DNA from: Tannerella sp.
Lineage (GTDB): Bacteria; Bacteroidota; Bacteroidia; Bacteroidales; Tannerellaceae
DNA: 44,666 nt
Reading direction: 5' to 3'
Assembly (NCBI GenBank): GCA_031276675.1
Contig: JAISMO010000116.1
Coordinates: 1-44,666 of the forward strand
Position numbers and translations under genes: made by a program. Below the pieces are notes generated by a model. The model saw nothing but the letters and a program-made list of their open reading frames with translations, had not been told where the DNA came from and did no database searches. Each line of letters opens with the position of its first letter. The stretch's first letter is position 1. This document shows positions 3,551-44,531 of this stretch, in pieces.

Positions 3551-4057
3551 TCAAATAAAAATTAAAACATGGTGGAATGTATCTCGATACCTTTTGGTAC
3601 CGTTTCCGGCGGAAATGTTCGCCATCGGGTTCGACTGCGACTTTTTCCGACGGAAATGTTCACAATCGGATCCGATTGCAACTTTTTCCGGCAGAAATGT
3701 TTGCAATCCGGTTCGACTGCGACTTTTTCCGACAGAAATATTCGCAATCCGGTTCGATTGCGACTTTTTCCGACAGAAATGTTCGCAATCGGGTTCGATT
3801 GCGACTTTTTCCGACAGAAGTGCGCTGAAATTGCAGTCCCGTCCGTGCGAAACACGAAGCCTATTCTGGACTGCCGACGCCTCTGCGCCGCGAAATTCGA
3901 CGGACCGCAAAGGCTGCGGAAGATGCAGGAAAATCATCTCGCCCGGCGCCAGCGCGGCAGCGCACAGCTCCGAAAGCAGCGCGAACAGCGATGCGCCGGG
4001 CAAACACGAAAGGCGCTGGCGCCTCATTCTCTTAAAAGGAAGGGTTATTCTTTTCAT
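3551..4057 (-). CDS. Uncertain small ORF running into the 41-bp array
   Basis: The frame starts at ATG 4057 (MKRITLPFKRMRRQRL) and runs about 75 residues of non-repeat sequence before entering the 41-bp tandem array. Because 41 is not a multiple of three, the array is read in changing frames as cysteine- and serine-rich residues. In favour of a gene are a good Bacteroidota -7 motif on the minus strand (TACATTTG, 4080-4087) and a degenerate copy of the solenoid-gene leader just upstream. Against it, the sequence matches no family I recognise, and the array lacks stops in several frames, so an open frame there means little. It may be a decayed gene whose 3' part was replaced by the array. Confidence 0.3.
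   Translation of the reverse strand: MKRITLPFKRMRRQRLSCLPGASLFALLSELCAAALAPGEMIFLHLPQPLRSVEFRGAEASAVQNRLRVSHGRDCNFSALLSEKVAIEPDCEHFCRKKSQSNRIANISVGKSRSRTGLQTFLPEKVAIGSDCEHFRRKKSQSNPMANISAGNGTKRYRDTFHHVLIFI
3615..3819. repeat. 41-bp tandem array, five units
   Basis: Units begin at 3615, 3656, 3697, 3738 and 3779, exactly 41 bp apart, differing only by substitutions. Each carries an inverted repeat of the form TCGCAATC-GGGTTC-GATTGCGA; the second unit has the perfect palindrome CAATCGGATCCGATTG. A second, weaker dyad (TTTCCGACGGAAA) sits in the other half, so each unit looks like two palindromes about 20 bp apart. It lies between the divergent DUF6261 gene and maeB. Confidence 0.9.
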
Positions 4058-4079
4058 CTTGTTTTCATTTTTCAATTCA

Positions 4080-4138
4080 CAAATGTAGTATTTTTTCAAT
4101 TGTCCGGAGTGGGATTTTCGGGATTGGGATGATTTTTT
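4080..4138 (-). promoter_or_regulatory. -7 promoter motif plus degenerate leader repeat, copy 4
   Basis: On the minus strand TACATTTG (4080-4087) fits the Bacteroidota -7 consensus TAnnTTTG. Behind it come CGGACAATT and GATT at 4113, 4122 and 4131 (plus strand), the 9-bp spacing seen in the leaders of the three solenoid genes. Confidence 0.5.
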
Positions 4139-4265
4139 CCGACTTTAGCGGTCACCGCCCCGGCGGGTCATTATCATTTTTTGCTCCGGTTCACGGCTGA
4201 AACCGTCAAATGCTTCAGCGGTCAGCAGATGCGCAGTGCGGGGATGGATCGGGCAACCCGCCTTA

Positions 4266-4306
4266 GCGCCGATGTACTCCGTTCCGCACGGGCTTTAGCC
4301 CCATTC
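4266..4306. repeat. Dispersed palindromic repeat, partial copy upstream of maeB
   Basis: Contains CGATGTACTCCGTT followed by GCACGGGCTTTAGCCCCATT, which is also present downstream of maeB at 6908-7006. The core GGGCTTTAGCCC is a near-palindrome. The rest of the 4139-4568 gap holds no gene. Confidence 0.7.
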
Positions 4307-4384
4307 TCTTATATTGAACTGTTTCTTTTTTTGAGGTGCTGTTCGTGATCCTCATAACAGGTTCGGCAAACTCACCGGCTGCCG

Positions 4385-4405
4385 ACAAGTCCCTCAGGAA
4401 CTTGT
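4385..4405. promoter_or_regulatory. 21-bp imperfect palindrome upstream of maeB
   Basis: ACAAGT and ACTTGT flank a centre that is nearly symmetric (CCCTCAGGA), so the 21 bp read almost the same on both strands. It could be an operator or the hairpin of an upstream transcript. There is no direct evidence for either. Confidence 0.35.
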
Positions 4406-4568
4406 ATCGAACCGTGCCATGCACAAAACCGTACCGCGCAAAGTATAACTATTCAGTCTCAGGACAAAAAAGAGCGTTTTAAATACTAAAATAGAAGAAT
4501 CCACGTTTGAACGATAAACAACAAAGATGCAGACAACACAAGAGATCATCTTCTAAAAAAACAACCCT

Positions 4569-7098: not shown

Positions 7099-8919
7099 TC
7101 AGTGATTGCCGGTTTCGCGTTCTTCCCAGCCGCTTTTTCCTTCATCCATATAGACTTCGATCAGCGTGCGGGATACCCGCGGGTCTACTTCCTCGACCAG
7201 CTGGATGCGTAGCGGATTCGTCAGCCGATCCTTCCATGCCAGCACGGGCTTGTAGGGTATTTCGCGGTCGATCCGGTAGACCAGGTACGCCCATTTTTCG
7301 GTAAACATGCTGCCCTGCAACGCCGGGATCACCTGTTGCATGTTGGAGGCGAGGAAACTGAGCGACAGCGCGCGCGTCCAGTATATCCACGGCCCGCCGG
7401 TGATATAGAAGTAGGGATTCAGCAGGCTGAGCCGCGACTCGAGCGAAGCATTGGCGTAGGCCAGGTTGATGCCGGCAAAGCCGATGCCCGTTTCGGCATT
7501 GTAGAAGGTGATCCAGGGCACGTCGGCTTCCATCTTCAGGTCGGTCAGGTCGGCCATGTGGAGCACATCATAGGTGATGACCCTGTCGCGGATGACGTCA
7601 TACCAGGCGGCATGGGTCATCAGTTCGCGCTTGAAAACGATTTCGGCATTGCGCAGGGCCAGACACTGCACCGTTTCATTGATCCTCATGCTGGTGGTAC
7701 TGAAGAAGTAGGGGACGCCCGGAAAAAACTCGTACCGGACGGAGGCGTCCACTTCGGGCATGTTACGCAAGGCTCCCCAGAACTCGCCCGTGGCCAGCAC
7801 GGGGCCGGAGATGGAGTACATGTGCTGCTCCTGTTTCCAGTCGGCCGTATGCGTCCAGGCCCGCGGAGGCACATAGATGCCCGGATTCCAGTGTACCGCG
7901 CCGTTGGTTTCCATGCGGTGATACAGCGGCTGGTCCGGCTGACTTTTCAGCGTGATCTGGTCGATGTGGCCGGAGTTGGGATGCAGGACGATGTTCAGCT
8001 GATCGTTGTCGACGGTCAGGCCGGGCAGTTCTCCCTGCACGCGCAGGTCGGTCTGATAGGTGCCGGCCATCGCCCCGGCGTTGTTGTAGTAAATCAGATA
8101 AACCTTGCTGGTTTTGGCCGGCACGTCGGCCAGAAAAGCCACCTTGCAGGTGACGGTCGGCATCCAGAGAGGGATTTGCCGTTCCGGGCCGTCTTCTTCC
8201 AGCGGCGCCAGGTCGTCTTTTACCGGGTATTTGCGAATCTCGAACACCTGGCTTGGCACTTCGCTCAGGCGGTGGTCGGCAGGATCGACGGCCACCACCC
8301 GGATTTCACGCTTCAGGTCGGTCACCTCGTCCGGATAGAACGGGAGCAGCACTTCTACCGCTTCATTTTTCCGGTCAATGCCGGCCGTTTCGCTGAGCAC
8401 GACGGACTTGTATGCCTTCCAGGCCGGGTCGAAGACCGGTGTGCCCGCGGGGGCCGTCAGGGTCTGCACGGCCGAGAGGATCCGGTCGTCGGGCGAAGGC
8501 TTGACCGATTTTTTCACGCGGACTTTCAGTTCAATCCGGTACGTGGCTCCCGGCTGCCATTTCAGCCATGCCGTGACATGGGGGGTCTTGTACAGCGAAT
8601 TGTCCTGCGAAAGGGCGTATCCGGAAGGCGGACGGTGGATGTATCCGGGTTTGTCGGTTTCCTCGACCACGTCGCCCCGGTACAGATTGACAAACCGCAA
8701 CGGCTGTCCGTTGACCGCGGCTTCCACCTCGATCATGGACGGTTCGGGCAGTTCCATCTCCGCCCTGAAATGGTAGAACGGAATGGAGGGAACCGGATAA
8801 CCCAGTTCCAGGCTGTTGATTTTCAGAGCGCCGCCGGAAATTTCCTTTGCCTCCGTCGGCAACGGCAGGCAGAGAAAACACATCAGCAGCAGCAATACAT
8901 TACATACGTTTGTTTTCAT
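7099..8919 (-). CDS. Exported protein of unknown function, probably carbohydrate-related
   Basis: A 606-residue protein with a clear signal peptide (MKTNVCNVLLLLMCFLCLPLPTEA). The mature part is beta-rich. A segment near residues 300-500 contains NDQLNIVLHPNSGHIDQIT and many aromatic residues (WNPGIYVPPRAWTHTADW), reminiscent of galactose-mutarotase-like beta-sandwiches found in glycoside hydrolases and lyases; this is a pattern-level impression only. No catalytic motif is recognised. It is the last gene of a minus-strand block starting with susC/susD and lies 13 bp after the 921-residue gene, so the two are probably co-transcribed. I infer periplasmic or surface action on the glycan taken up by the SusC/D pair. 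Confidence 0.85.
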   Translation of the reverse strand: MKTNVCNVLLLLMCFLCLPLPTEAKEISGGALKINSLELGYPVPSIPFYHFRAEMELPEPSMIEVEAAVNGQPLRFVNLYRGDVVEETDKPGYIHRPPSGYALSQDNSLYKTPHVTAWLKWQPGATYRIELKVRVKKSVKPSPDDRILSAVQTLTAPAGTPVFDPAWKAYKSVVLSETAGIDRKNEAVEVLLPFYPDEVTDLKREIRVVAVDPADHRLSEVPSQVFEIRKYPVKDDLAPLEEDGPERQIPLWMPTVTCKVAFLADVPAKTSKVYLIYYNNAGAMAGTYQTDLRVQGELPGLTVDNDQLNIVLHPNSGHIDQITLKSQPDQPLYHRMETNGAVHWNPGIYVPPRAWTHTADWKQEQHMYSISGPVLATGEFWGALRNMPEVDASVRYEFFPGVPYFFSTTSMRINETVQCLALRNAEIVFKRELMTHAAWYDVIRDRVITYDVLHMADLTDLKMEADVPWITFYNAETGIGFAGINLAYANASLESRLSLLNPYFYITGGPWIYWTRALSLSFLASNMQQVIPALQGSMFTEKWAYLVYRIDREIPYKPVLAWKDRLTNPLRIQLVEEVDPRVSRTLIEVYMDEGKSGWEERETGNH

Positions 8920-8932
8920 TGATGATAACTGT

Positions 8933-8981
8933 TTAGTGATTAGCGATTAGTGGGTAGTGGTTAGTGGTTAGTGAGCGGTGA
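8933..8981. repeat. Heptamer tandem array, exactly seven units
   Basis: Seven contiguous 7-bp units, mostly TTAGTGA, TTAGTGG or TTAGCGA, covering 49 bp. It includes the stop and last roughly 15 codons of the 921-residue gene, whose tail HRSLTTNHYPLIANH is simply the heptamer read on the minus strand. A second seven-unit array of the same heptamer lies at 43533-43581. Confidence 0.85.
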
Positions 8982-11665
8982 GCCTGTCCGCCGTTTCGGA
9001 CGGTGATCAGGTTTCTTTTGCGCAACTCCTCAAGGCCGTTTTTCCAGTCTCCGCCGTTTCCCCAGATGTAATAGGAGAAGTACATGGTGCTTTGCTGAAT
9101 GATGGGCGTCCAGGGCTGAAACTCGACATAGGTGTGAGGCGCTTCGCCGTTTTCCGGCAGGTTCATCCACATGTGCAGGAAAAGAGGCTGCGACACGGGG
9201 AAGGCCCCCACAAAGGCAATGTCTTCCTGAGTGTCATATCCCGCGTTCCATCCCTCGACCACTTCGATGGCCTGTCCGTACATGGCGTCGGGCTTCATCC
9301 GGTATTCCCGCAGTCCCTCCGCCACGGGTACGGTGAACACGTCTTCCGTGCCGTGGCTTTTCCCCAGTTCCAGGATCGGCTGGGGGCCGATGACGTTGGC
9401 TTCGGGATTTTTGAACCTCAACGCCCATTTGATTTCCAGCAGGGGCGTATTGCCGTAGAGCGTAAAGACTTTCCGAATCCGGTTGCCGTAGTAGTCGGTT
9501 TCCATTTCGACCTGCACATGGTCGCCTTCCTTGCGGACCAGCTTGGCGTCGTAGACCCGGTGGGTTTCCATGCTGGCCTGTCCGAGGAAATCCTCAAACC
9601 CGCCGTAAGGATAGAATCCCCTCATGCGGTGGGGCGCCTTGTGGTTGGGCGCCTGCTTCGGCCATATTTTGAACAGGAGGTTGTCGTTGCGGCTTTTGAC
9701 CACGTATTCGATCACCCGTGCACCCGTGCGGAGCAGGGTCACCCGGACGGAATCGTTCTCCAGGCGGTATTCGTTGACGCCGTCGCCGTTCAGGTCGATT
9801 TCATAGGCATACGTCCGGCCTTCGGCCTTGCCGACCCCCAGTTGCGTTTCGGCCTCCAGGTCCAGCGCCCGCGTCTTCACGGTGTAGCGTCCGGCGTTCA
9901 GTTTCAGCGGAAAGACCAGTTCGCTGAAGGTGGCCGGATTCGTCCGGCAGGTCTGGGTCTGCCGCAGGACGGCTTTGCCCGGCCGGTCGCGTTCGTAGAC
10001 CGTCACTTCGACCGGAAAACTGCCCGTTGCGGAGAAATTGTGCACCGTGACCGGAAAGGCCACCTCCGGCGCATGAGCATAAAGCAGCTGGTGGGCGGAA
10101 ATGGCCGGCGGCAGGTCCAGCATCGTCAGGGTCGTTTTCTGCTTTTCGCCGGCCGCAAAGGATACGGCCACGGGGTTGGTCTTCCCCATTGCCCCGGGTC
10201 CGGGTTGCAGGGTGACGCGAATCTGCCGTTCCTCATACCCCGGCAGGACGACGGTTTCCGGAAGCGGCCCGGTGCGGACGTCCGGCGATGTGGTGAGGGC
10301 CAGCGTGCCGGAAACCGGTTCCGGCGAGTGATTCCGCAGAGTGACCACCAGGTCGTAGCCGTCCGTTTCGGCCTTCAGGTTCAGCCGGTCGTAGAAACAG
10401 TCTTCCAGATAGAGGCGGTCCAGGTAGAGCAGCTGTACGGTATGGCGGAAGGCCGCCGGCCCCATCACCCGCGCGCCGGAAAGCACGGCCACTTCCCTGC
10501 GGTTCAGGATGGCCTCCCAGAGGGTTTTGCCGGAGAGCGCCTGTTCCTTTTCCAGGAAGACGATCATGGAGGAGAGCAGGTGGCCGCTCAGGTAACCGGT
10601 ATGGCAGATAAAGGGCTTGTTTTCGCCGTCGATCTGCTCTTTGTTGCCCTCGTGCACGATGTAGCCGTCATATTCATAGGGGTCGCTTGCGGGGTGGTAG
10701 ACCGGGCGGAAGACGTAGCCTCCCTTCCTGCGGGCAAAGTCGATCCAGGACTGCCTGGTGGGCATGTCCTGCACCTGCAGGCCGTCGTAGTCGGTGCAGC
10801 CGTAGACGGGCGAATAGCCGACCTGTACCACCACGGGCAGGTTGACTTCCTTCACCAGGCTTTCCAGTTCGCGCTGCGCCAGGAAGTCCATGTAGCCGTC
10901 AAAGACGAACCAGGAACAGCCCTCGTTCAGGCCGATGCCCATCACCTCCAGCGGATGCCCGGCCTCGCAGGTGACGCTTTTCAGCAGCGTGGCGGCGCCG
11001 AAGAATCCCTTGTGCATACGGAAGGTGTCCAGGATTTCGCGCGCGGAGGCCAGCAGGTTTTGCAGGCGTTCGAGCTGTTCGGTCGAGGCGGAGGAGAGGA
11101 CAAAGAGGTGCGTGTCGCCGTTGACCAGGTAAAAAGCCTTGAGCGGCGCCAGGCCCTCGGCGTCCAGCTGGTGGCTGTGGAGCCGTCCGGCCCAGTCGAA
11201 CTGTCCCCCGGCCAGGGCTTCCAGGCGCTGACCCAGAGGCGTGTCCGGCGAGGTGAGCGCCAGCACGCGGCCATTCTTCAGCGCCCGTTCCAGCTCTTCC
11301 GGGCCGGGATGGTCGAGCGTCCGGCAGGGCGCGGCAAAGAGGCGGGAAATGAATCCCTCCTGCATCAGCAGGCCGGGCAGTCCCAGATCTTCGGCGATGT
11401 CCACCTTGCTTTGCAGGACGGTGGACTGCAGGTCGGGCACGGCCATCTTGAACAGGTGGCCATAGCGGTACCAGTCGGTATAGGTATCGTGCCAGTGATT
11501 CGTGTATCCGTTGAAGCGGATGCTGCTTTTAATCAGCGGCGCCCCGTCGGTGTCCGGTTCCATCCGGAAACCGGAAAGCGTCTGGCCGTGAGCCGCCGCC
11601 GTGAACAGGGCGGCCATGCACGGCATGACAAGTTTTGTCCGCAGACAACATACGGTAGATTTCAT
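8933..11665 (-). CDS. Large exported protein of unknown function
   Basis: About 910 residues from ATG 11665 (MKSTVCCLRTKLVMPCMAA, signal peptide ending at AAAHG); an upstream ATG at 11698 would add 11 residues before the signal and is less likely. Residues 25-400 look like an alpha/beta domain (PVVVQVGYSPVYGCTDYDG, GGYVFRPVYHPASDPYEYDG). The middle carries beta domains such as LVVTLRNHSPEPVSGTLAL, like CARDB or NPCBM-associated folds. The C-terminal third (YRLENDSVRVTLL, YGGFEDFLGQASMETHRVYD) resembles the mutarotase-like part of the next gene. I do not recognise a catalytic family. Context in a SusC/D locus suggests glycan processing. The last residues are encoded by the heptamer array, so the original C-terminus may have been altered. 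Confidence 0.85.
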   Translation of the reverse strand: MKSTVCCLRTKLVMPCMAALFTAAAHGQTLSGFRMEPDTDGAPLIKSSIRFNGYTNHWHDTYTDWYRYGHLFKMAVPDLQSTVLQSKVDIAEDLGLPGLLMQEGFISRLFAAPCRTLDHPGPEELERALKNGRVLALTSPDTPLGQRLEALAGGQFDWAGRLHSHQLDAEGLAPLKAFYLVNGDTHLFVLSSASTEQLERLQNLLASAREILDTFRMHKGFFGAATLLKSVTCEAGHPLEVMGIGLNEGCSWFVFDGYMDFLAQRELESLVKEVNLPVVVQVGYSPVYGCTDYDGLQVQDMPTRQSWIDFARRKGGYVFRPVYHPASDPYEYDGYIVHEGNKEQIDGENKPFICHTGYLSGHLLSSMIVFLEKEQALSGKTLWEAILNRREVAVLSGARVMGPAAFRHTVQLLYLDRLYLEDCFYDRLNLKAETDGYDLVVTLRNHSPEPVSGTLALTTSPDVRTGPLPETVVLPGYEERQIRVTLQPGPGAMGKTNPVAVSFAAGEKQKTTLTMLDLPPAISAHQLLYAHAPEVAFPVTVHNFSATGSFPVEVTVYERDRPGKAVLRQTQTCRTNPATFSELVFPLKLNAGRYTVKTRALDLEAETQLGVGKAEGRTYAYEIDLNGDGVNEYRLENDSVRVTLLRTGARVIEYVVKSRNDNLLFKIWPKQAPNHKAPHRMRGFYPYGGFEDFLGQASMETHRVYDAKLVRKEGDHVQVEMETDYYGNRIRKVFTLYGNTPLLEIKWALRFKNPEANVIGPQPILELGKSHGTEDVFTVPVAEGLREYRMKPDAMYGQAIEVVEGWNAGYDTQEDIAFVGAFPVSQPLFLHMWMNLPENGEAPHTYVEFQPWTPIIQQSTMYFSYYIWGNGGDWKNGLEELRKRNLITVRNGGQAHRSLTTNHYPLIANH

Positions 11666-11748
11666 ACTTTTTCTGTTTTTGTGAATTTTAAATTTCATAT
11701 CTCCTGTCTCCTACTTTTATGTATATATGTATATCGGATTGCGGGGTG

Positions 11749-11770
11749 GGGGCGAAAAATTTTTCGCCCC
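11749..11770. terminator. Perfect 22-bp palindrome, probable terminator
   Basis: GGGGCGAAAAA followed directly by TTTTTCGCCCC, a perfect palindrome overlapping the first base of the stop codon (11770-11772) of the 316-residue gene. It could terminate transcripts in either direction, and would separate that gene from the 921-residue gene. Confidence 0.6.
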
Positions 11771-12720
11771 TACTCCGCTTCCTGACGGTTGTGTTCGACT
11801 TCGCGCGGTTGGGCGTCGGAGGTTTCCTGACGCCGGCGGTTGACCGTGCCGGCCAGGTCCTCGGTGGTGAGGGGCATGGAAAAGGTCGGTTCGGGGCCAA
11901 ACTTGGGCACGTCTTCCACATGTTTGAGGAAGGCGGCCTTGATGATGAACAGCTTGCCGTGCGAGCCGTCGGGCATCCGGATGTCGTTGTGCAGGCGGGA
12001 GGTATACTGCCGGCACACTTCGGTTTTGCCGTCGGCCGCCATGATGACGATCACCGCCAGCCGCACGCCCGTTGGCCAGCCGTGTGCCGTGAGCGCGGCA
12101 TTTTCCGTGGTGGCCTGGTCAATCACCACGCGGATAAAGTCCATGTTGATGACGGAGACCTTGACTTCGGCCAGCGCGTCGGTCGCTTCCTGCCGGGCGC
12201 GGCGCCCGCCCGTTTCTCCCGGCAGGAAGAATCCGAGCAGATGCACATCGTCCATGGTCAGCACCCCGGCGAAGTACTGCATGTGCGCCCAGGATTTCAC
12301 CTGATTCAGACACAGTCCGATGATGGTTCTGAGCAGCGTGTTGCGCACGGCGCGGTCGGCGGTGGAGCCGTAGTTCGACCGGCACCGGGCAATCAGTTTG
12401 GCCAGTTCGCTGCGGCCGCTGGTCAGCTGATCAAGCAGCGCCTGGGGAAAGTTCCATTTCGTCTGACTGGCTGTGACCAGGTTGACGAGGTTGTCGAGGT
12501 TGTCGAACTTCGCGTCAATGGAGCCATGCCAGCGACGAATGTTGGCCAGCACGCCGTCGGGAATGCTGCTGTAGGTAGCGTTTCCCGCGGCAAGCGCCAG
12601 CGAGAGTCCGCCGCCCGCAGACAGGAGATTTTCCGGGTCTGCAAGGAAGGCGAAAAACGGGATGGACAGGTCGGATACGATGCCGACCGTCCGGATCAAT
12701 AATTGAAATAAAGTTTCCAT
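11770..12720 (-). CDS. Conserved-looking protein of unknown function
   Basis: A 316-residue protein. The first 55 residues contain two hydrophobic stretches (LLIRTVGIVSDLSIPFFAFL and AGGGLSLALAAG). Residues 60-180 are helical. Residues 190-290 look beta-rich (VRLAVIVIMAADGKTEVC, GKLFIIKAAFLKHV). The arrangement, a helical bundle followed by a fibronectin-like domain, recalls Bacteroidota proteins of unknown function often found with DUF6261, but I could not confirm homology by reading. The C-terminus is charged and low complexity (RRRQETSDAQPREVEHNRQ). It sits between the lipoprotein cluster and the two large exported proteins, with a strong palindrome at its end, so it may be its own transcription unit. 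Confidence 0.75.
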   Translation of the reverse strand: METLFQLLIRTVGIVSDLSIPFFAFLADPENLLSAGGGLSLALAAGNATYSSIPDGVLANIRRWHGSIDAKFDNLDNLVNLVTASQTKWNFPQALLDQLTSGRSELAKLIARCRSNYGSTADRAVRNTLLRTIIGLCLNQVKSWAHMQYFAGVLTMDDVHLLGFFLPGETGGRRARQEATDALAEVKVSVINMDFIRVVIDQATTENAALTAHGWPTGVRLAVIVIMAADGKTEVCRQYTSRLHNDIRMPDGSHGKLFIIKAAFLKHVEDVPKFGPEPTFSMPLTTEDLAGTVNRRRQETSDAQPREVEHNRQEAE

Positions 12721-12806
12721 TGTTGTGATAATTAGAATATTATTAATATAGAATACTTGAAAAGACGGAGGAAGGACGCCCGAAAAAACGCAAAAACAGG
12801 CGCCAT

Positions 12807-13058
12807 TTTCGGGGAAATGTCCGCCGTTTTCCGGGAAACGGTTTTTATATCCCGGGATACGTTTTCTGTTTTCGGGGATACGATTTCTGTTTTCCGGGAT
12901 ATGGTTTTCATTTTCGGGGATATGGTTTTCATTTCCCCGAAAATGATTTTTGTTTTCGGGGAAATGGTTTCTGTTTCCCGGGAAATGATTTCCATTTTCC
13001 GGGAAATGGTTTTTGTTTCCCGGAAAACGGTCTTTGTTTTTCGGAGGTTTTTTTCACC
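12807..13058. repeat. 21-bp tandem array, twelve units
   Basis: Twelve units start every 21 bp from 12807 (12828, 12849, and so on to 13038) with substitutions only. The common core is TTTCCGGGAAATGGTTT; several units centre on the dyads TTTCCCGGGAAA or ATTTTCCGGGAAAT. Since 21 is a multiple of three, both strands read as long heptad-like open frames, which I regard as by-products. It lies in the 648-bp gap between the 316-residue gene and the lipoprotein cluster. Confidence 0.92.
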
Positions 13059-13367: not shown

Positions 13368-13979
13368 TTATTCGATCCGCAAAAAAAAGGTTTTAAACTC
13401 ATGATCCGGATAGACGCATCCGATTTCGGTATAACCGATTCGTGGATATACGATCATTACCCTTAACAGCACTTCGCAAAAAACTGCATCATCACCTATC
13501 CTGCTCGGCTCGGGATTACATCCCGGATCGCAGACGGGACAGAAAGGATAACCGCCATATTCATAGTCGCAAACGTCCGCAGAGTTGGAAACGGTCAGTG
13601 TCCCGTCTTCTCTGAAGTGATACACAATTTCTTCGCACGAACGGTCCGTGGTGTCCTTTCCGCTGATTTCCAGCATTAATTTCCATTTGCCGACAATATC
13701 GTTCACTTTTCCGGTTTTTGCCGGAGAAGCACATGTCGCCTTTTCACTGATTCTGTAGTGATAAATGTCGGTACTTTCAAAGACGTCTTTATACACAGGC
13801 TCTTCCTGTGCCGGGGGAGGCTCTTCCGCCGGAATTTCTTCTTCTTCCGGCGGCGGCGTCACGGATGCGACCGTTTCCCCGCTGCCGGGTTCGGACATAA
13901 TCCCCCTGTCACCGGCACGGTCGCACTGCGCAAACATGCCTATGCACAGGCAAAACAATATTGCATTTGTTTTCATCAT
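13368..13979 (-). CDS. Tandem lipoprotein paralogue 1 (lipocalin-like pattern)
   Basis: A 203-residue lipoprotein: signal peptide with lipobox FAQC, so cleaved and lipidated at Cys about 19. A proline- and glutamate-rich linker (PPPEEEEIPAEEPPP) follows, typical of a spacer holding the domain away from the membrane. The folded part contains VNDIVGKWKLMLEISGKD, SCEEIVYHFREDGTLTVS and a cysteine-rich FCPVCDPGC. The GKW and DGTL pattern resembles lipocalin-like domains of Bacteroidota lipoproteins; the ligand is unknown. It is 9 bp from the next paralogue, in one transcription direction downstream of susC/susD, which suggests a surface or periplasmic accessory role. Confidence 0.85.
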   Translation of the reverse strand: MMKTNAILFCLCIGMFAQCDRAGDRGIMSEPGSGETVASVTPPPEEEEIPAEEPPPAQEEPVYKDVFESTDIYHYRISEKATCASPAKTGKVNDIVGKWKLMLEISGKDTTDRSCEEIVYHFREDGTLTVSNSADVCDYEYGGYPFCPVCDPGCNPEPSRIGDDAVFCEVLLRVMIVYPRIGYTEIGCVYPDHEFKTFFLRIE

Positions 13980-13988
13980 TCCTTCGGT

Positions 13989-14600
13989 TTATTCGATCCG
14001 TAAAAATAAGGTTCTGATTTCATGATCCGGATAGCTGCATCCAAGTTCCGTATAACTGGTCTGCGGATATACGAACATCTTCCTTAACAGCACTTCGCAA
14101 AACACCGCCGCATCATTACCCTTCCTGAAATTCAGATCGGATTTACATTTCGGAAGGCAGGAAGGACAGAAAGGATAAGCGTCATATTCATAGTCACAAA
14201 CGTCCTCCGTGTTGGAAACGGTCAGCGTTCCGTCTTCCCTGAAGTGATACACAATCGCTTCGCAGGAACGGTCCGTGGTGTCCTTTCCGTTGATTTCCAG
14301 CGCCAGTTGCCATTTGCCGACAATGTCATTTACTTCGCCGGTTTTTGCCGGAGAAAGACAGGCTGCCTTTTTATAGATTTCGTCGAAAGAAGTATCGATT
14401 TGTTCATAAGCGCTTACATACACCGGCTCTTCCGGCGTTTGGGGAGCCTCTTCCGCCGGAATTTCTTCTTCCGGCGGCTGTGTCACGGATTCGACCGGTT
14501 CTCCGCTGCCGGGTTCGGGTATATATACTTCGTTGCCGATACGGTCACACTGCGTAAATATCACTGCGCACAGGCAAAACAATATTGCATTTGCTTTCAT
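13989..14600 (-). CDS. Tandem lipoprotein paralogue 2
   Basis: A 203-residue lipoprotein, the closest relative of paralogue 1. The lipobox is FTQC. A shorter acidic linker (PPEEEIPAEEAPQTPEEP) is followed by the same domain: VNDIVGKWQLALEINGKD, SCEAIVYHFREDGTLTVS and the cysteine cluster FCPSCLPKC. The C-terminus LFLRIE matches that of its neighbours, including at DNA level across the stop and into the next start, so whole gene-plus-spacer units were duplicated. Surface-exposed differences concentrate around residues 65-85 and 150-165, which may be where ligand specificity differs. Confidence 0.85.
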   Translation of the reverse strand: MKANAILFCLCAVIFTQCDRIGNEVYIPEPGSGEPVESVTQPPEEEIPAEEAPQTPEEPVYVSAYEQIDTSFDEIYKKAACLSPAKTGEVNDIVGKWQLALEINGKDTTDRSCEAIVYHFREDGTLTVSNTEDVCDYEYDAYPFCPSCLPKCKSDLNFRKGNDAAVFCEVLLRKMFVYPQTSYTELGCSYPDHEIRTLFLRIE

Positions 14601-14612
14601 CGTTTCTTCGGT

Positions 14613-15215
14613 TTATTCGATTCGTAAAAACACATTATTAATCTCAAATACAGGCCATCTCGCTGTCGGCACGAACTGCTGCTCGTATTGCGGATACAGA
14701 ATCATTTTTGTGTACAGCGCTATGCAGAAAACCTCCGTATCTCCCATCCTTAAGTTGGGTCGGGGGGCGGGATCGCAGGAAGGACAGAGAGAAATCGCTT
14801 CGAAGGCGTAATCAACGTCTTCCGTACTGCCGGCGACGCTCAGCGTCCCGTCCGCTTTGAAATGATAGACAATCTCCTCGCACGAACGGTCGACGGTATC
14901 GTTTCCGCTGATTTCCATCATCAGTTTCCATTTGCCGGTAATGTCATACGCTTCTCCGGTTTTTGCCGGCGAAGGACATGCGGCCTTTTCACACACTTCA
15001 TCATAGGATGCATCCATTCCCCGAGCCCATTTTTCAGATGTAAACTCCTCCGTTTCTTCGGGATTCGGCTCTTCCGGCGTTTGGGGAGGCTCTTCGGTTA
15101 TACCTTCGATCACTTCTCCGCTGCCGGGTTCGGGCATAATCCCCCTGTCACCGGCACGGTCACACTGTGCAAACATGCCTATGCACAGGCAAAACAATAT
15201 TGCATTTGTTTTCAT
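14613..15215 (-). CDS. Tandem lipoprotein paralogue 3
   Basis: A 200-residue lipoprotein; its first 25 residues are nearly identical to paralogue 1 (MKTNAILFCLCIGMFAQCD), but the body is the most divergent of the three. The linker is EEPPQTPEEPNPEETEE. The domain has YDITGKWKLMMEISGND, SCEEIVYHFKADGTLSVA and a reduced cysteine cluster (LCPSCDPAP). It ends VFEINNVFLRIE. The mix of a conserved signal region with a divergent body fits gene conversion between copies. It is first of the three in transcription order, about 160 bp after susD, with a decayed extra copy in between. Confidence 0.85.
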   Translation of the reverse strand: MKTNAILFCLCIGMFAQCDRAGDRGIMPEPGSGEVIEGITEEPPQTPEEPNPEETEEFTSEKWARGMDASYDEVCEKAACPSPAKTGEAYDITGKWKLMMEISGNDTVDRSCEEIVYHFKADGTLSVAGSTEDVDYAFEAISLCPSCDPAPRPNLRMGDTEVFCIALYTKMILYPQYEQQFVPTARWPVFEINNVFLRIE

Positions 15216-23562: not shown

Positions 23563-23677
23563 GGCATTTCCGTGATGCGGAGTAAGTAACCTCTGCAATG
23601 CAGAGTAAGTAACCTCCGGTGCACGGAACAAGTAACCTCCGATACGTGGAACAGGCGACCTCCGGGATGCGGAGCAG
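23563..23677. repeat. 23-bp tandem array, five units
   Basis: Units start at 23563 (degenerate), 23586, 23609, 23632 and 23655, exactly 23 bp apart. The core is GTAACCTCCG followed by a complementary CGGAG or GCAGAG; for example CTCTGC-AAT-GCAGAG is a perfect hairpin. It lies between the convergent cyclo-ligase and tadA genes. The rest of the gap to 23924 has no gene. Confidence 0.85.
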
Positions 23678-23924
23678 CCCTGTGCCGTGACAGGAAGCTT
23701 TATTCTTGATTATAAAGCAACAAGAATCCGTGTTCATCCGTAAAATCCGTGTCATCCGCGTGTTGAAGACGCTGGAGACATCCTCTGTACCCCCTTAGGG
23801 ATGAAAAATCAATAGCATAGCACAGCCCCTCCTGCTGGACAGGCAACGATAAAACCTCCTTTTCACCGCATTTCGAAAACAAAACAGCCTCCGTATCCGT
23901 AATAAACCGGCAACCCATGACCTC

Positions 23925-23964
23925 ATTACCTCATTAACCGGAAATAGACAGTTAATGAGGTAAT
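23925..23964. terminator. Hairpin between convergent genes
   Basis: ATTACCTCATTAAC and GTTAATGAGGTAAT form a perfect 14-bp stem with a 12-nt loop, placed between the 3' ends of the cyclo-ligase gene and tadA. It is a plausible bidirectional terminator. Confidence 0.6.
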
Positions 23965-24038
23965 CGGGTGCGTGCCGTCTTCGGGCTATGGAGGTTATTT
24001 TGCAGGGGAAATGAGGTTTGTCTGTTACTTTTCATCGC

Positions 24039-29778: not shown

Positions 29779-29985
29779 AGGTTGATCGACCTGTAGTGTA
29801 TAGGTCCGTGGGCCTCTACGCTACAGGTCGATGGACCTGCAGCCTGGAGGTCAGGCGACCTCCAGCTTACAGGTTGATCGACCTCCAGCCTGCAGGTTAA
29901 TTGACCTCCAGCCTGCAGGTTGATCGACCTCAAGCCTACAGGTCGGTCGACCTCCAGGCTGGAGGTGGGTTCACCTGTGCACTGG
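29779..29985. repeat. 23-bp tandem array, nine units
   Basis: Nine units start every 23 bp from 29779 to 29963 with no indels. Every unit carries AGGT, six variable bases, then ACCT (or a close variant), a perfect or near-perfect small hairpin, followed by a CCAGCCTGC-like stretch whose end pairs with the next unit. It fills most of the 29380-30145 gap, which otherwise contains no gene. Confidence 0.92.
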
Positions 29986-34645: not shown

Positions 34646-34993
34646 TTAAGAATTGAGAGTGAAGGGCGGAGTTGCAAATGGGGAAAACGGGGGTTGCAAA
34701 CTCTCTTCATAAAACATTCCGTGGCAACGCAGACAGTTCCGGAAAGGCTTTTCCTTTGCATTGTGAGCGCTGTTCATAACTATGAAACGGATCACCCCTG
34801 CTTGCGTAGCCCCCGGATCCTGATCGGCGGGTATCATCTGTTCGCACAGGGCCATCAGGCAGTCGGCTTCAGCCTCTGTAAAAACCCGATAACCGGATGC
34901 CGGCAAAGATGAACATGCAGGTAACAGCATCACACTGCCGTATGCCAAACCTGCCGCTTTGATAAATTCTCTTCTACTGTATTGTCTGATCAT
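34646..34993 (-). pseudogene. Gluconate 2-dehydrogenase subunit 3 family, truncated/frameshifted
   Basis: The N-terminus is a twin-arginine-type signal with lipoprotein-like Cys (SRREFIKAAGLAYGSVMLLPAC), then FTEAEADCLMALCEQMIPAD and GATQAGVIRFI, characteristic of the Gluc_2-dh3 family (small subunit of GMC-type membrane dehydrogenases, usually about 180-200 residues). After GVIRFI the frame turns into unrelated sequence and stops at 115 residues. A neighbouring frame continues with DPFHSYEQRS and KAFPELSAL, which looks more like the missing family sequence, so a small deletion or frameshift is likely. The large flavoprotein partner is absent. I regard it as decayed. Confidence 0.6.
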
Positions 34994-35130
34994 ATCTATA
35001 CGATAATATGGTTTAATTTTCCGGGGCGCCTTCCGTTTTCAGGCCCCCTTTTCCCTTGCCGTCCACGCCCCACTTTCGTCAAAAAGCTGTAAATCAGCAG
35101 CAAATAACTTATGAAAGGCCTCTAAATCAG

Positions 35131-35330
35131 ATCTAATCCCGCCAGATTAAATCTAATTTCGCCAGATTAAATCTAATCTCGCCAAAACAAATCTAATTTC
35201 ACGGGAACAAATCTAATCTCGCCAAAACAGATCTAATTTCACGGAAACAAATCTAATTTCGCCGAAACAAATCTAATCTCACGGGAACAAATCTAATCTC
35301 GCCGGAACAAATCTAATTTCACGGGAAAAT
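35131..35330. repeat. 20-bp tandem array, ten units
   Basis: ATCTAAT recurs exactly every 20 bp at 35131, 35151, 35171 and so on to 35311. Units alternate irregularly between endings TCGCC and TCACGGG, with a spacer of AAACA, GAACA or AGATTA. Only substitutions separate the copies. It lies between the divergent truncated dehydrogenase gene and the aldo/keto reductase gene. The rest of the 34994-35721 gap has no convincing gene. Confidence 0.92.
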
Positions 35331-35687
35331 AGAAGGTATGGCGGGCGGATGTCGGCGTCGTCCGGCTTCCGTTTTTTATCCGGGACCTCAAAGAACTTTT
35401 TCGACGGAGACAAAGATACCATGTTTTTAGAGATTTCGACGGCATGAATCATCCACCGTAAACAGGGATGCCGCGCAGGATGAGCCGTTATTTTTTATCC
35501 GACTTCCTTTTTGCGCCCTTCGGAAGACCCGGCCGGGCCGGCAGGAATCCGATGTACACGGCCCGCAGTTTGGGTAAGCCAGGCCGTATAGGTTTCCACA
35601 TCTTTTCGAATGGCCGGATACATGTGCCTGACCGGCCCGGGCAAAAAAGAATCGCGCGGTCGGCAAGCCTTTTTCGGTCACAAGTCT

Positions 35688-36790: not shown

Positions 36791-36905
36791 AGGCAAAAAA
36801 ACACGTATTGTCAGCGCGATAATGCGTATTATCGGAGCAATAACACGTATTGTTCAGGTAAAAATACGTGTTATCCGGCCGAAAATACGTCTTGTTGAAG
36901 CAAAA
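36791..36905. repeat. 21-bp tandem array, five units
   Basis: CGTRTT-type cores are spaced exactly 21 bp at 36804, 36825, 36846, 36867 and 36888. Units are near-palindromic, for example CGATAATGC-GTATTATCG and AACACGTATTGTT. It lies between the convergent aldo/keto reductase and outer-membrane-like genes and fills most of that 307-bp gap. Confidence 0.88.
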
Positions 36906-40611: not shown

Positions 40612-40625
40612 TGTGTTTTTCTTTT

Positions 40626-41363: not shown

Positions 41364-41393
41364 AAAAAGTTCCCGTTTAATTTGTTTGAGGAG

Positions 41394-41401: not shown

Positions 41402-41445
41402 TGGAAATTCAAGGATACAAAACAGGGTTCCGGTTGAGTCCCGAA

Positions 41446-42078
41446 TCATTTCCGTCCGAAATCGGCCGGTATTTCGCCCCATGCCCGGGTATCCCATTTG
41501 AGAATCTGTGTTTCCCAGGTATTCTCCCGCAGCCATTTTTCGGCCCGTTCGATCAGATCGAAGACGGGAACATTGGCCGCCGTCCGTGTGAGTTTGGTAC
41601 GGCATTTCTTCATCCCTATCCACAGGATGGCGTTCCGGCTGTCGGAATAGAGCGGCAGCGGGAGATGGTCCCGTTTCATCAGCGCCAGCCCGTGCACAAG
41701 CGCCAGAAATTCCCCGACATTGTTTGTCCCCTGTCTGAGCGGCCCCACATGAAACCATTCCTTTCCGGAGGCCACATGGACGCCCCGGTATTCCATGTCG
41801 CCCGGATTGCCGCTGCAAGCCGCATCCACGGCCAGACTCTCGCGAATGAACGGGAGCGCGCAGGGGAAAACCTCCCGAACGGACGGCGAAGAGGGTTTCG
41901 CAACCTCTCCGAAGGACTGCCGACCGGTTTCATAGGCAATGCGAGCGGCCTCGCCGGAGTCGAACGACCGGTAGCTGGCCCCCGGATAGCCCGCTATCTG
42001 CAACCTGCACTCTTCCCAGGAGGCATAAATGCCCGGCCGGACGCCTTCCCAAACCACGTAATATTTTTTCTTTGCCAT
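41446..42078 (-). CDS. Ribonuclease H with N-terminal viroplasmin-like domain
   Basis: About 210 residues from ATG 42078 (MAKKKYYVVWEGVRPGIY), supported by the -7 motif just upstream. Residues 4-45 are the caulimovirus viroplasmin/RNase H1 hybrid-binding domain (YYVVWEGVRPGIYASWEEC) that grips RNA/DNA hybrids. Residues about 75-205 are RNase HI with the acidic residues in AVDAACSGNPG, NNVGEFLALVHGL and YSDSRNAILW, and a final Asp in WGEIPADFGRK. It degrades RNA in RNA/DNA hybrids, clearing R-loops and primers. Monocistronic. Confidence 0.93.
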   Translation of the reverse strand: MAKKKYYVVWEGVRPGIYASWEECRLQIAGYPGASYRSFDSGEAARIAYETGRQSFGEVAKPSSPSVREVFPCALPFIRESLAVDAACSGNPGDMEYRGVHVASGKEWFHVGPLRQGTNNVGEFLALVHGLALMKRDHLPLPLYSDSRNAILWIGMKKCRTKLTRTAANVPVFDLIERAEKWLRENTWETQILKWDTRAWGEIPADFGRK

Positions 42079-42095
42079 ACCATTGTTTTCTCCTG

Positions 42096-42103
42096 CAAAA
42101 GTA
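42096..42103 (-). promoter_or_regulatory. -7 promoter of the RNase H gene
   Basis: CAAAAGTA on the plus strand is TACTTTTG on the minus strand. Transcription from here would start near 42090, excluding upstream start codons and fixing ATG 42078. Confidence 0.55.
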
Positions 42104-42160
42104 GTCACAATCTCCCTCCCGCACAAAGCATAAATATTCCAAAAAAAGCGTGCGCAGCGA

Positions 42161-42190
42161 TTGCCGGAACGGAGAATCCTTCTACTTTTG
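42161..42190 (+). promoter_or_regulatory. Promoter of the fucose permease gene
   Basis: TTG at 42161 and TACTTTTG at 42183-42190 with 19 bp between, a good -33/-7 pair; the ATG follows at 42230. Confidence 0.6.
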
Positions 42191-42229
42191 CCGGCAAATG
42201 TTTAAACGTATCTGTTTGATAAATAAGAA

Positions 42230-43543
42230 ATGATGAAAAATGCTTCTTTTTTTCGCGGAAAAGACGGACAAAACTACCTGTTCCCGTTTATCCTTGTAAC
42301 GTCCCTTTTTGCCTTGTGGGGATTTGCCAACGATATTACCAACCCGATGGTCAAGGCCTTTCAGAAAATTCTTCTGATCAGCAACTTCGAAAGTTCGCTG
42401 GTGCAGTTTGCCTTCTATGGCGGATATTGTTTGATGGCCATTCCGGCGGCGCTGTTTCTCCGGAAATTCAACTACAAGAAGGGGCTGCTGGTGGGGCTTG
42501 CCCTGTATGCTGCGGGCGGGCTGCTGTTTGTGCCCGCCTGTCAGGCGATGGCCTTTTGGGCGTTCCTGTTCGCGTATTTCGTGATGACATGCGGACTGTC
42601 GTTTCTTGAAACGACCTCCAACCCGTATATTCTGGCGCTCGGACCGGAGGAAAGCGCCACACGCCGGTTGAATTTTGCCCAGGCTTTCAATCCGATGGGA
42701 TCGCTGACGGGCATGTGGGTGGCGAAAGAATTTATCCTGGCCAAGATGGACGGTCGAAGCGAAGAAGCACGGCAGGCCCTGTGCATGGCCCGTCCCGAGG
42801 AATTTGCCGCACTGCAGAAATCCGACCTCCATATCGTCGGCCAACCGTACCTGATACTCGGACTGGCCGTGCTGTTTGTCTTCATTCTTTTCCTGGCAGC
42901 CCGCCTGCCGAAACCGGCTGCCCCGGATGCGGACACCCTGTCGACCGGCGCCACGTTCCGCAAGCTGATGAAAAACAAACGCTACGTATATGCCGTGATC
43001 GCGCAGTGCTTTTATGTGGGCGTACAGATCATGGTCTGGACGTTTATCATCCAGTATGCGAACCGGGAACTCGACATGAAGGAGGAAACGGCGCAGGGCT
43101 ACAACATGATGGCTATGGCGATCTTTGTTTCCAGCCGTTTTGTCTGCACCTTCCTGCTGAAATACTTCAAACCGAGTGTGCTGTTGACCATGCTCGCTTT
43201 TGGCGGCGCGATCTTTACGCTGGGAGCGATCTTTGTGCACGGCATGGCGGGACTCTACTGCCTGATTGCGATTTCGGCCTGCATGTCGCTGATGTTCCCC
43301 ACGATATACGGTATTGCCCTGAAAGGTATGGGCGATGAGGCCAAACTGGCTTCGGCGGGACTGATTCTGGCCATCGGCGGCGGCAGTATCCTGCCGCCAA
43401 TGCAGGGCTTGCTGATAGACAGGGCCGTCTGGTTTGACGGACTGTCATCCATACGCTTCTCGTTTGTCTTGCCGCTGATATGCTTCGCCGTCATTGCCGC
43501 CTTCGGACAATGGGTCGGCAAAAAACGGGAAATTAGTGATTAG
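42230..43543 (+). CDS. fucP: L-fucose:H+ symporter permease (major facilitator superfamily)
   Basis: 437 residues with about twelve membrane segments. The FucP pattern is clear: FILVTSLFALWGFANDITNP near the start, QFAFYGGYCLMAIPAALFL, FLETTSNPYILALGP and RLNFAQAFNPMGSLTGM. FucP imports L-fucose (some relatives import other sugars) with protons across the inner membrane. The family assignment is firm, the exact sugar less so, since no other fucose genes are adjacent. The stop codon falls in the first unit of a heptamer array. Confidence 0.94.
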   Translation: MMKNASFFRGKDGQNYLFPFILVTSLFALWGFANDITNPMVKAFQKILLISNFESSLVQFAFYGGYCLMAIPAALFLRKFNYKKGLLVGLALYAAGGLLFVPACQAMAFWAFLFAYFVMTCGLSFLETTSNPYILALGPEESATRRLNFAQAFNPMGSLTGMWVAKEFILAKMDGRSEEARQALCMARPEEFAALQKSDLHIVGQPYLILGLAVLFVFILFLAARLPKPAAPDADTLSTGATFRKLMKNKRYVYAVIAQCFYVGVQIMVWTFIIQYANRELDMKEETAQGYNMMAMAIFVSSRFVCTFLLKYFKPSVLLTMLAFGGAIFTLGAIFVHGMAGLYCLIAISACMSLMFPTIYGIALKGMGDEAKLASAGLILAIGGGSILPPMQGLLIDRAVWFDGLSSIRFSFVLPLICFAVIAAFGQWVGKKREISD

Positions 43544-43581
43544 TGATTAGTGATTAGTGGTTAGTGGTTAGCGGTTAGCGG
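43533..43581. repeat. Heptamer tandem array, exactly seven units
   Basis: Seven contiguous 7-bp units (TTAGTGA three times, TTAGTGG twice, TTAGCGG twice) covering 49 bp from the last codons of fucP into the spacer. It has the same unit and number as at 8933-8981. Confidence 0.9.
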
Positions 43582-43636
43582 TTAATTATCAGTGATTCGC
43601 GGGGCGAAATGCGGCAGGTTCCATGGTTTCTATGTA

Positions 43637-44119
43637 TCAGCGGTGTTCATCGAATGTCTGTTCAAACGAAAGCGGAAGCAGGGACGCTGCCGAATCTACG
43701 CAGCGCACTTCCTCGCAGCCGCATAGCAGGATGCGCACCGGATGACGCTGGCGCCGTTCCGTTTCCTGCAACACTTGACGGCATGAGCCGCAGGGTGCAA
43801 TGGACGGCACAATCCGGTCGCCCCTGACGGCCGCCACCGCCAGCGCCTTCACCGGCGCCTCCGGATAGCGGGCATGTGCGCTGAACAGCGCGACCCGTTC
43901 GGCACACATGCCCGACGGACTGGCTATGTTCTCCTGATTGTTGCCCGTCACCAGCGTTCCGTCGGCCAGTACGGCCACCGCGCCCACACGGAATCCGGAG
44001 TAGGGCGCATACGCCTGCCTTGCGGCGGCAACGGCGGCGTCCATCCACTGTTTTTCTTCGCCGGACAATTCTTCCGTCCGAAATGTCCGAATCGTAATTT
44101 CAACGCTCCGGGTGTTCAT
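43637..44119 (-). CDS. cdd: Cytidine deaminase
   Basis: A 160-residue zinc enzyme of pyrimidine salvage, converting (deoxy)cytidine to (deoxy)uridine. Active-site motifs CAERVALFSA and PCGSCRQVL are intact, giving the three-Cys zinc site of the small tetrameric type and the catalytic Glu. The substrate-binding segment YAPYSGFRVGAV near residue 40 is typical. Length is slightly above that of the usual tetrameric form because of an N-terminal extension. It is convergent with fucP and has its own promoter. Confidence 0.95.
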   Translation of the reverse strand: MNTRSVEITIRTFRTEELSGEEKQWMDAAVAAARQAYAPYSGFRVGAVAVLADGTLVTGNNQENIASPSGMCAERVALFSAHARYPEAPVKALAVAAVRGDRIVPSIAPCGSCRQVLQETERRQRHPVRILLCGCEEVRCVDSAASLLPLSFEQTFDEHR

Positions 44120-44153
44120 TTTGCTTTATGATGGCTGTTCCACATGCGATCCG

Positions 44154-44176
44154 ATTTTTTTTTTTTTGCAAAGATA
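44154..44176 (-). promoter_or_regulatory. -7 promoter of cdd next to a 13-T homopolymer
   Basis: CAAAGATA (plus strand 44169-44176) is TATCTTTG on the minus strand. It is followed in the direction of transcription by 13 consecutive T on the plus strand (A on the transcript), covering the expected transcription start. Run length could vary by slippage and affect expression. Confidence 0.5.
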
Positions 44177-44324
44177 GTTTTATTCGGCGGTAAACGACCG
44201 TTTGAAATACAGGTCCACCCCTAAAACCCTGTGTTCACGCATTCCTTCCGCCTGTCTTTTTTCGGTGTTGAAGAGAACTGTTTCCCGCTCCGCATCGGGA
44301 AAATACGGACAAGCGTTGCGGCCT

Positions 44325-44531
44325 GTCGAGTAGTAGCATTACGTCACGTTGAGTAGTAACGTTACGTCGTGTCGAGTAGTAACGTTACGTCGCGTCGAGT
44401 AGTAACGTTACGTCGCGTCGAGTAGTAACGTTACAAAGAGACGCTTTGTAACATTACGAAGCGACGCTTCGTAGCGTTACGAAGAGGCGCTTCGTAGCAT
44501 TACGAAGAGGCACTTCGTAGCGTTACGAAGT
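44325..44531. repeat. 23-bp tandem array, nine units in two sequence blocks
   Basis: Units start every 23 bp from 44325 to 44509 without indels. Units 1-5 share GTCGAGTAGTAACGTTACGT and units 6-9 share CTTCGTAGCGTTACGAAG. Both kinds contain a dyad (GTAACGTTAC; CTTCGTA...TTACGAAG) at the same place. It fills the gap between cdd and the transposase-like end. The stretch 44177-44324 shows nothing recognisable. Confidence 0.92.

Follow-up and report, generated by a model that had tools for sequence, protein, structure and literature searches.

Short tandem arrays in the DNA of this Tannerella sp. are coupled to three uncharacterised gene families, here called B, C and DUF6261: they mostly lie upstream of the gene, with a family-specific period (21 bp for B; 21, 42 or 63 bp for C; 40-43 bp for DUF6261) and a unit whose sequence changes. 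Gene and array together look like an undescribed two-part genetic module, and among the matches listed in the open-licence full-text literature no paper dealt with gene-coupled arrays of this kind. An earlier note, made from the sequence alone, had described seven intergenic arrays of fixed period, and had missed the coupling of arrays to specific genes and of period to gene family.

Tandem Repeats Finder (TRF), run on the window (the whole stretch analysed, 44,666 nucleotides), recovered all seven arrays at or near the limits that had been set by eye (Table 1). The arrays at 23563 and 36791 are weak, with 2.5 and 2.6 copies in TRF as against the five counted by eye. Dyads, claimed for most units, are enriched overall but not general: two of the seven window arrays reached p <= 0.05 in a consensus test. 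The 41-bp array has two dyads per unit, about 20.5 bp apart by eye, and diverged relatives at other loci of its own genome. The unit of the 21-bp array at 12806 combines a TTTCCCGGGAAA-type palindrome with an AAAACC linker, and this array is kept in the orthologous gap of genome G033 (L179:5951-6175). No array was found in the 559 bp examined of the G033 gap corresponding to 23563 (L180), and before the same downstream gene as the 29779 array G033 carries a DUF6261 module with a 41-bp array (L181). For the array at 36791, no partner gene was found, nor a counterpart downstream of the aldo-keto gene in G033 (L183). The array at 44325 has its unit in common with L169:7995.

Table 1 Arrays and associated features in the window
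Feature	Position	Strand	Basis and remarks
DUF6261 gene (PF19775) paired with the 41-bp array	2552..3529	-	Pfam E 3.5e-33 and family search
41-bp array	3603..3857	-	TRF period 41 (by eye 3615-3819, five copies); 73 bp upstream of the DUF6261 ORF
Family C gene (316 aa) paired with the 21-bp array	11770..12720	-	No Pfam/NCBIfam match
21-bp array	12806..13057	-	TRF 12826-13044, period 21; partner is the family C gene
Weak 23-bp array	23563..23677	n/a	TRF 23607-23664, period 23, score 67
23-bp array	29779..29985	n/a	TRF 29779-29966, period 23/46
Family B leader copy (spacer, 20-bp array, distal flank), B gene absent	35035..35428	-	84-88% identical to L353, in three pieces; flank comparison
20-bp array	35131-35327	-	TRF period 20; part of the gene-less leader copy
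TATCTTTG, promoter-type -7 box directed into the 20-bp array	35411..35418	-	
Degenerate 21-bp array	36791..36905	n/a	TRF 36800-36853, period 21, score 66
23-bp array with GTAACGTTAC core	44325..44531	n/a	TRF 44325-44530, period 23

Across an 862-kb sample of the same genome such arrays occur throughout, and their periods are far from evenly spread: of 82 arrays with periods of 10-100 bp, 73 have a period of 20, 21, 23, 41 or 42 bp and none a period of 22. Mononucleotide-shuffled DNA of the first 610 kb yielded no array of period 10-100 at the same threshold, and in a complete genome from this genus most periods are 41 or 42. The arrays are real and clade-wide. Those of a first sample do not reduce to one unit, the 55 arrays forming 26 unit clusters, of which 17 have one member, and 38 arrays clustering with other loci. 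The earlier statement that units are unrelated between loci holds between families, yet for five of the seven window arrays a clustering partner exists at another locus, in one case within a loose cluster of eight that may result from chaining. As had been claimed, the arrays are intergenic: none of the 55 overlapped a gene call by >=30%, and a single one had an overlap of 9%, these context counts being rough because the simple codon-score method used for calling missed some genes. The period also holds, a shift being needed in 1 of 333 units vs 956 substitutions in 38 arrays linked to family B. A control on flanking DNA gave 530 substitutions vs 200 gaps, a figure inflated by over-extended local alignments (16 vs 0 in the cleanest pair, 22 vs 4 in an orthologous pair), so that resistance of the period to indels, only moderately supported, rests on the low shift count inside the arrays. 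Unit sequence turns over fast, and period does not. In line with the earlier note, the results support a genome-wide class that has sharply quantised periods, few shifts and units free between families, and with it a shared cause rather than random slippage.

In family B, an uncharacterised protein family of ~222 aa with up to 31 matches in one genome, an array lies within 500 bp upstream of the gene in 33/34 cases and downstream in 1/34, against a background, for all called genes of the own genome, of 37/474 and 47/474 at <=500 bp. Among the 41 B loci for which upstream DNA was available, 36 have a period of exactly 21, one of 20 and one of 42, with nine of the 11 loci of G295 and G200, which belong to other taxonomic families, among those at 21. 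Family C, which is weakly similar to B, has an array <=500 bp upstream of eight of 10 genes and downstream of one of 10, and a period of 21, 42 or 63 in 14/20 loci. For DUF6261, the corresponding counts are 23/26 upstream and 0/26 downstream in six genomes; G003, with 55 copies, gave 24/40 and 5/40 (all called genes of that genome, 49/255 and 40/255). Periods of 40-43 bp were found in 26/29 DUF6261 loci, in 24/40 genes of G003, and, at a looser TRF threshold, in 17/29 one-per-genome loci across the order, the 17 spanning 13 family labels. None of the three families matched polymerase, nuclease or transposase families, and family B gave nothing significant in Pfam or NCBIfam. No relative of B turned up in viral contigs (queried with a four-row alignment) or in plasmid and phage collections (queried with a single B protein). 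Nor was homology of B with DUF6261 supported (hhalign probability 1.8%).

A Bacteroides-type promoter box, TAnnTTTG, occurs in gene sense on the far side of the array, <=120 bp away, at 15/38 B loci (shuffled mean 1.7, max 5, 300 shuffles; antisense 5) and 9/49 DUF6261 loci (shuffled mean 1.6, max 6; antisense 4). Because such boxes are often found there, the arrays probably sit in transcribed leaders. Leaders also occur without their gene: the copy in the window now precedes a minus-strand ORF starting at 34993, and at several loci the 20-bp array family to which it belongs is bordered on either side by conserved sequence.

We tentatively propose, as a reading that falls somewhat short of an even chance, a class of modules in which a family B, C or DUF6261 gene carries an upstream array, probably in its leader, and the protein controls its own expression through predicted binding to it. 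Probably a dimer on palindromic units, the encoded protein would occupy the array cooperatively, with one copy on each unit; binding would fix the spacing, and concerted evolution inside the array would let the unit sequence drift. Solo arrays of these family periods would be leader copies now standing in front of other genes, or what is left of modules after decay of the gene, and the 23-bp arrays a separate, gene-less class resembling the BrickBuilt element of Porphyromonas gingivalis. Units have a common palindromic core in C (score 7.08 vs 4.6-5.0 in five shuffles) and weak ones in B (4.35 vs 3.3-3.5) and DUF6261 (4.53 vs 3.6-3.8), and partial gene pieces adjoining some arrays, the gene-less leader copy in the window and the low number of period shifts also count in favour of the module. 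Several observations count against it: no DNA-binding domain was recognised in the B, C or DUF6261 proteins; 16/40 DUF6261 genes of G003, including eight short forms, lack a 40-43-bp array within 500 bp; promoter boxes are few in C leaders (2/15) and, in some B modules, lie between array and gene (8/33 vs 2.1 expected); no array lies close to either of two short C-like pieces (L349, L361); five of six arrays tested in G200 lack a significant dyad; and 23 bp is not a whole number of helical turns. Co-divergence of protein and unit, as would be expected of cognate recognition, did not extend beyond near-identical paralogues: only there is unit similarity high, and once protein identity drops under about 80% it loses most of its excess over background, with weak Mantel correlations (B, r 0.08, p 0.08; C, p 0.35; DUF6261, r 0.07, p 0.02). 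A further step, which we regard as rather doubtful, is that the pitch of the protein assembly acts as a ruler and maintains the repeat length of the array in the protein's own leader, leaving sequence free and keeping the period between distant bacteria. Different families would then have different rulers, of two and four helical turns, and copied leaders would bring other genes under the same control.

Of the two ideas in the earlier note, helically phased protein-binding sites fare better, and hairpin trains found no clear support in gene-linked arrays. Compensatory changes showed no excess in gene-linked arrays (observed/shuffled: B 17/21.9, DUF6261 2/2.6, C 11/15.6), and in the own genome only the 41/42 set is clearly above shuffle (14/6.2; 23-bp arrays 1/4.2, 20/21 arrays 5/3.3). 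Cells with G:T and A:C were balanced in B (95 vs 91) and DUF6261 (53 vs 50), with slight asymmetry in C (78 vs 63), and sense and antisense folding energies did not differ significantly. These results count against the alternative that the leader acts as RNA, with repeated sites or hairpins that bind the encoded protein or a ligand, or that are cut into unit-length RNAs. The sense-strand promoter boxes and the strand-specific A richness of C arrays (AT skew 0.21, p 0.001) speak for this reading, which we consider unlikely; against it, the window has no Rfam match apart from one tRNA. The tests bear on hairpins, and single-stranded RNA sites may be compatible with them.

An equally improbable alternative sees the arrays as miniature mobile elements spreading between genes, with the genes as passengers or chance neighbours. 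Its model is BrickBuilt of Porphyromonas gingivalis, described as a minisatellite within a MITE, intergenic, with a 23-nt head-to-tail repeat and no spacers, a leader and tail with promoters, and 19 copies in one strain (PMC4596501). The 23-bp arrays fit it well: they make up 22/82 arrays of the 862-kb sample, lie outside called genes in the first sample, and have no partner gene by neighbour clustering over the 862 kb, the loci at 23563, 29779 and 44325 included. They belong to the same order and are likewise 23-nt intergenic tandem repeats, so that the earlier claim of no described class is right only in part; the 20/21/41/42 arrays do not share the 23-nt unit. Gene-less 20-bp copies resemble BrickBuilt too, and the conserved flanks of the 20-bp family and the clustering of 38/55 arrays speak for spreading elements. 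BrickBuilt, however, is one repeat family with no partner gene named in the retrieved part of its description, as against many unrelated units and three gene families here. Mobility leaves unexplained the upstream-only coupling and a family-linked period kept across many taxa without sequence conservation, and visual inspection of the 20-bp copy revealed no terminal inverted repeats. Very improbable, in our estimate, is an enzyme with a built-in length ruler that generates arrays from a short piece of nearby sequence by copying it. It would suit the quantised periods shared by unrelated units, the near-complete change of unit between paralogues that are still fairly close, and one conserved flank that adjoins two 20-bp units differing by eye, but the arrays decay at their ends and change little by little from copy to copy, like ordinary tandem arrays (L030, by eye), and none of the three families matched a polymerase or nuclease family. 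Such decay, and the common descent of several loci, would be expected if slippage and unequal crossing-over acted alone, with no selection, and chance or descent had produced the peaks in period; with the same few periods in many unrelated units, a period that follows the gene family in distant taxa, and few period shifts, we give this almost no credence.

REP palindromes of the REP/RAYT type are multi-copy intergenic palindromic repeats, some beside a gene and others solo, a description that also fits the present arrays; these differ in being head-to-tail, of fixed period and before a gene, with free unit sequence, and in having partner proteins that match no transposase (Pfam, NCBIfam). Plasmid iterons are direct repeats spaced at about two helical turns in front of the gene for the Rep protein that binds them, with replicon-specific sequence. 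Family B and C loci likewise have a direct-repeat array upstream of the gene, about 21-22 bp apart, but are chromosomal and multi-copy, B and C have no Rep family match, and one B protein was unmatched in a plasmid collection. A CRISPR array was rejected, the whole unit repeating with no unique spacers between. Borg tandem repeats also comprise many units per genome, of independent origin and partly intergenic (about half in genes); they are perfect and extrachromosomal, with no gene-specific period mentioned in the retrieved part of the source, whereas units here are imperfect and chromosomal (PMC9879509).

An array of family-specific period before the gene offers a functional clue for DUF6261 and family B, and the module would be a case of conserved spacing rather than conserved sequence. 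Such modules may account for part of the intergenic minisatellites in Bacteroidales. Among the matches listed in the open-licence literature, DUF6261 is named once, in an unrelated paper.

The seven intergenic arrays that the earlier note described in the window were all recovered by Tandem Repeats Finder (TRF), two of them weakly. The window corresponds to contig 188 in a 189-contig genome of 2.9 Mb. Among the best 80 of 589 matches to its malic/phosphotransacetylase gene, the top one (87% amino-acid identity) came from a Tannerella sp. metagenome bin and the following three, at 78-79%, from two Tannerella bins and one Bacteroidales bin. In 41 stretches of the window's genome (610 kb) we counted 60 arrays of period 10-100, of which 55 had a period of 20-23 or 41-43, against none in mononucleotide shuffles of the sampled DNA. 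None of these first 55 arrays overlapped a called gene by at least 30%, and one overlapped by 9%, in agreement with the intergenic location noted. Once 20 further stretches were added (862 kb in total), we counted 6 arrays of period 20, 21 of 21, 22 of 23, 3 of 24, 13 of 41, 11 of 42 and 6 of other periods, with none of period 22. G003, the one single-contig assembly among our 41 Tannerella genomes (the window's own included), had a period of 20-23 or 41-43 in 55 of 69 arrays over 400 kb, 41 and 42 dominating, which rules out short-read assembly as the source of the arrays. These periods were shared by 7/7 arrays at eight loci of related Tannerella-type bins and, at 21-23, by 23/39 arrays in 72 further loci (1.33 Mb, mostly Bacteroidales).

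Clustering of the genes adjoining arrays singled out two gene families. Family B proteins, mostly 203-235 aa, matched nothing significantly in Pfam, in NCBIfam or among PDB sequences. Counting fragments, they gave 22 hits in G000, 31 in G027, 15 in G015, 11 in G033 and 0 in G003; a four-row alignment (E 1e-6) found the family in 2 of 295 genomes taken elsewhere in the phylum. Upstream DNA was visible at 41 of the 43 family B loci taken, and the period was exactly 21 in 36, 20 in one and 42 in one, the remaining three having no array or another period. Family C, present in 15 of the 41 genus genomes, resembles B weakly (6.2 bits; at most 1.6 in 200 shuffles); its 20 loci displayed a 21-, 42- or 63-bp array upstream in 14 cases, 2.2 copies of 22 bp in one and none in five. 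DUF6261 (PF19775), whose comparison with B gave no support for kinship, has 6 copies in G000, 55 in G003 and 0 in 14 control genomes. In a first set of 30 DUF6261 loci from six genomes, 29 with visible upstream DNA, we observed a 40-43-bp array at 26, a 21-bp array at one and none at two. At 40 further G003 loci, such a 40-43-bp array lay within 500 bp in 24, comprising 23/31 forms of at least 295 aa and 1/9 shorter forms. DUF6261 is carried by 32 of 295 genomes drawn from the order, own included; at one locus each for 29 of the 31 other carriers (TRF score at least 45, at least 2.0 copies), 17 had an array within 500 bp, of period 41 (12), 42 (4) or 43 (1), three with just 2.0-2.6 copies.

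When 520 bases were required on either side of the gene, arrays within 500 bp were upstream and downstream, respectively, of 33/34 and 1/34 B genes, 8/10 and 1/10 C genes, 23/26 and 0/26 DUF6261 genes, and 24/40 and 5/40 G003 DUF6261 genes. The background for every called gene was 37/474 and 47/474 in the own sample, and 49/255 and 40/255 in G003. TAnnTTTG, reported as the -7 promoter consensus for Bacteroides (PMC7366714), was searched up to 120 bp past the array on the gene-distal side, in both senses, with 300 shuffles. It occurred in sense at 15/38 B arrays (shuffled mean 1.7, max 5; antisense 5), at 9/49 DUF6261 arrays (mean 1.6, max 6; antisense 4) and at just 2/15 C arrays. Boxes also lay between array and B gene at 8/33 loci versus 2.1 in shuffles (max 7), so some B modules may have a promoter, or a second one, there. 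In the own genome, boxes pointed into and away from gene-linked arrays in 5 and 3 cases, solo 20/21 and 41/42 arrays (those lacking such a gene) in 8 and 2, and 23/24-bp arrays in 0 and 2, with shuffles giving about 1.1-1.3 per group.

The fixed period noted within arrays was borne out, shifts being rare relative to substitutions: 1 vs 956 in B arrays, 1 vs 485 and 8 vs 801 in two DUF6261 sets, 5 vs 498 in C arrays, 7 vs 288 in 23-bp arrays and 0 vs 391 in own 41/42 arrays. Clustering against column-shuffled units reduced 55 own arrays to 26 unit clusters, 17 of them single, and 65 G003 arrays to 35; the proposal that units are unrelated between loci thus applies to many, but dispersed unit families also occur. 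High unit similarity was confined to near-identical paralogues.

In the orthologous gap of G033 the 12826 array has stayed in place, with an unchanged period and a unit that resembles the window's. The examined parts of the 23563 and 36791 gaps showed no array, and the 44325 gap coincides with a contig end. The gene next to the 29779 array on its downstream side in the window is preceded in G033 by a DUF6261 module whose array has a 41-bp period. The G033 aldo-keto gene has a 21-bp array with another unit about 389 bp upstream, where the window has its 20-bp array at about 395 bp, although the intervening DNA aligns poorly (229/352). The window's 20-bp unit also lies upstream of a family B gene at L271 (the same place as L353), whose leader has a gene-less copy in the window (see table). 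Partial B or DUF6261 pieces adjoin arrays at L014, L019, L165 and L026; no array lies close to the two short C-like pieces at L349 and L361. Judging from the leader copy and the gene pieces, copied leaders or module remnants account for at least some of the solo arrays. A 20-bp array at L347 has a similar distal flank (127/153 identical) but a unit different by eye, which suggests that the unit evolves faster than the DNA around it.

Features of the window beside the arrays
Position	Feature	Remarks
32-2221	78-bp repeats inside long open frames, apart from intergenic arrays	being in open frames, probably encode 26-residue protein repeats
7099-11698	two long minus-strand proteins (606, 921 aa) after family C gene	secreted-looking by eye; no Pfam match
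8933-8973; 43532-43597	heptamer repeats TTAGTGG / ATTAGTG	at or just past gene ends
11770-12720	family C gene	
13368-15215	three tandem minus-strand paralogues (203, 203, 200 aa)	lipoprotein-like by eye; no Pfam family match
23798-24017	dispersed-repeat member	88% identical to DNA near L353:3215-3443; resembles several other own contigs
35035-35428	gene-less copy of L271/L353 family B leader	84-88% identity; both flanks present

Unit dyads of the kind described in the window are enriched overall relative to shuffled units but not universal (p<=0.05 in 2/7 window arrays). B-linked units had a mean dyad score of 13.1 vs 8.6 shuffled (p<=0.05 in 20/38), family C units have in common a palindromic core whose centre varies, and B and DUF6261 units have weak cores. 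Selection for RNA hairpins, hairpin trains being one mechanism suggested for the constant period, is unsupported in gene-linked arrays: compensatory changes showed no excess over expectation (B 17 vs 21.9, DUF6261 2 vs 2.6, C 11 vs 15.6), G:T and A:C cells were similar for B (95 and 91) and DUF6261 (53 and 50), with 78 and 63 for C, and folding energy did not differ significantly by strand. Own 41/42 arrays were clearly above expectation (14 vs 6.2), own 20/21 arrays slightly (5 vs 3.3). A dimeric protein on the array would be compatible with these results if it accepted sequence change and depended on spacing, of about two helical turns in B and C arrays and about four in DUF6261 arrays. We infer that this binder would be the partner protein encoded beside the array, which would serve as its binding site.

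The statement that no described class matches holds in part. The 23-nt, gene-less, promoter-bearing kind is covered by BrickBuilt, the minisatellite-MITE of Porphyromonas gingivalis (PMC4596501), but the open-licence full-text literature gave no description of gene-coupled arrays among the matches listed. None of the known kinds tested fits the gene-coupled arrays.

Separately, five G003 loci (L139, L143, L152, L154 and L157) carry tyrosine recombinase genes, mostly paired, the first of which has an array of period 22, 41 or 43 some 290-470 bp upstream; the six recombinases tested had Phage_integrase and Phage_int_SAM_5 domains.
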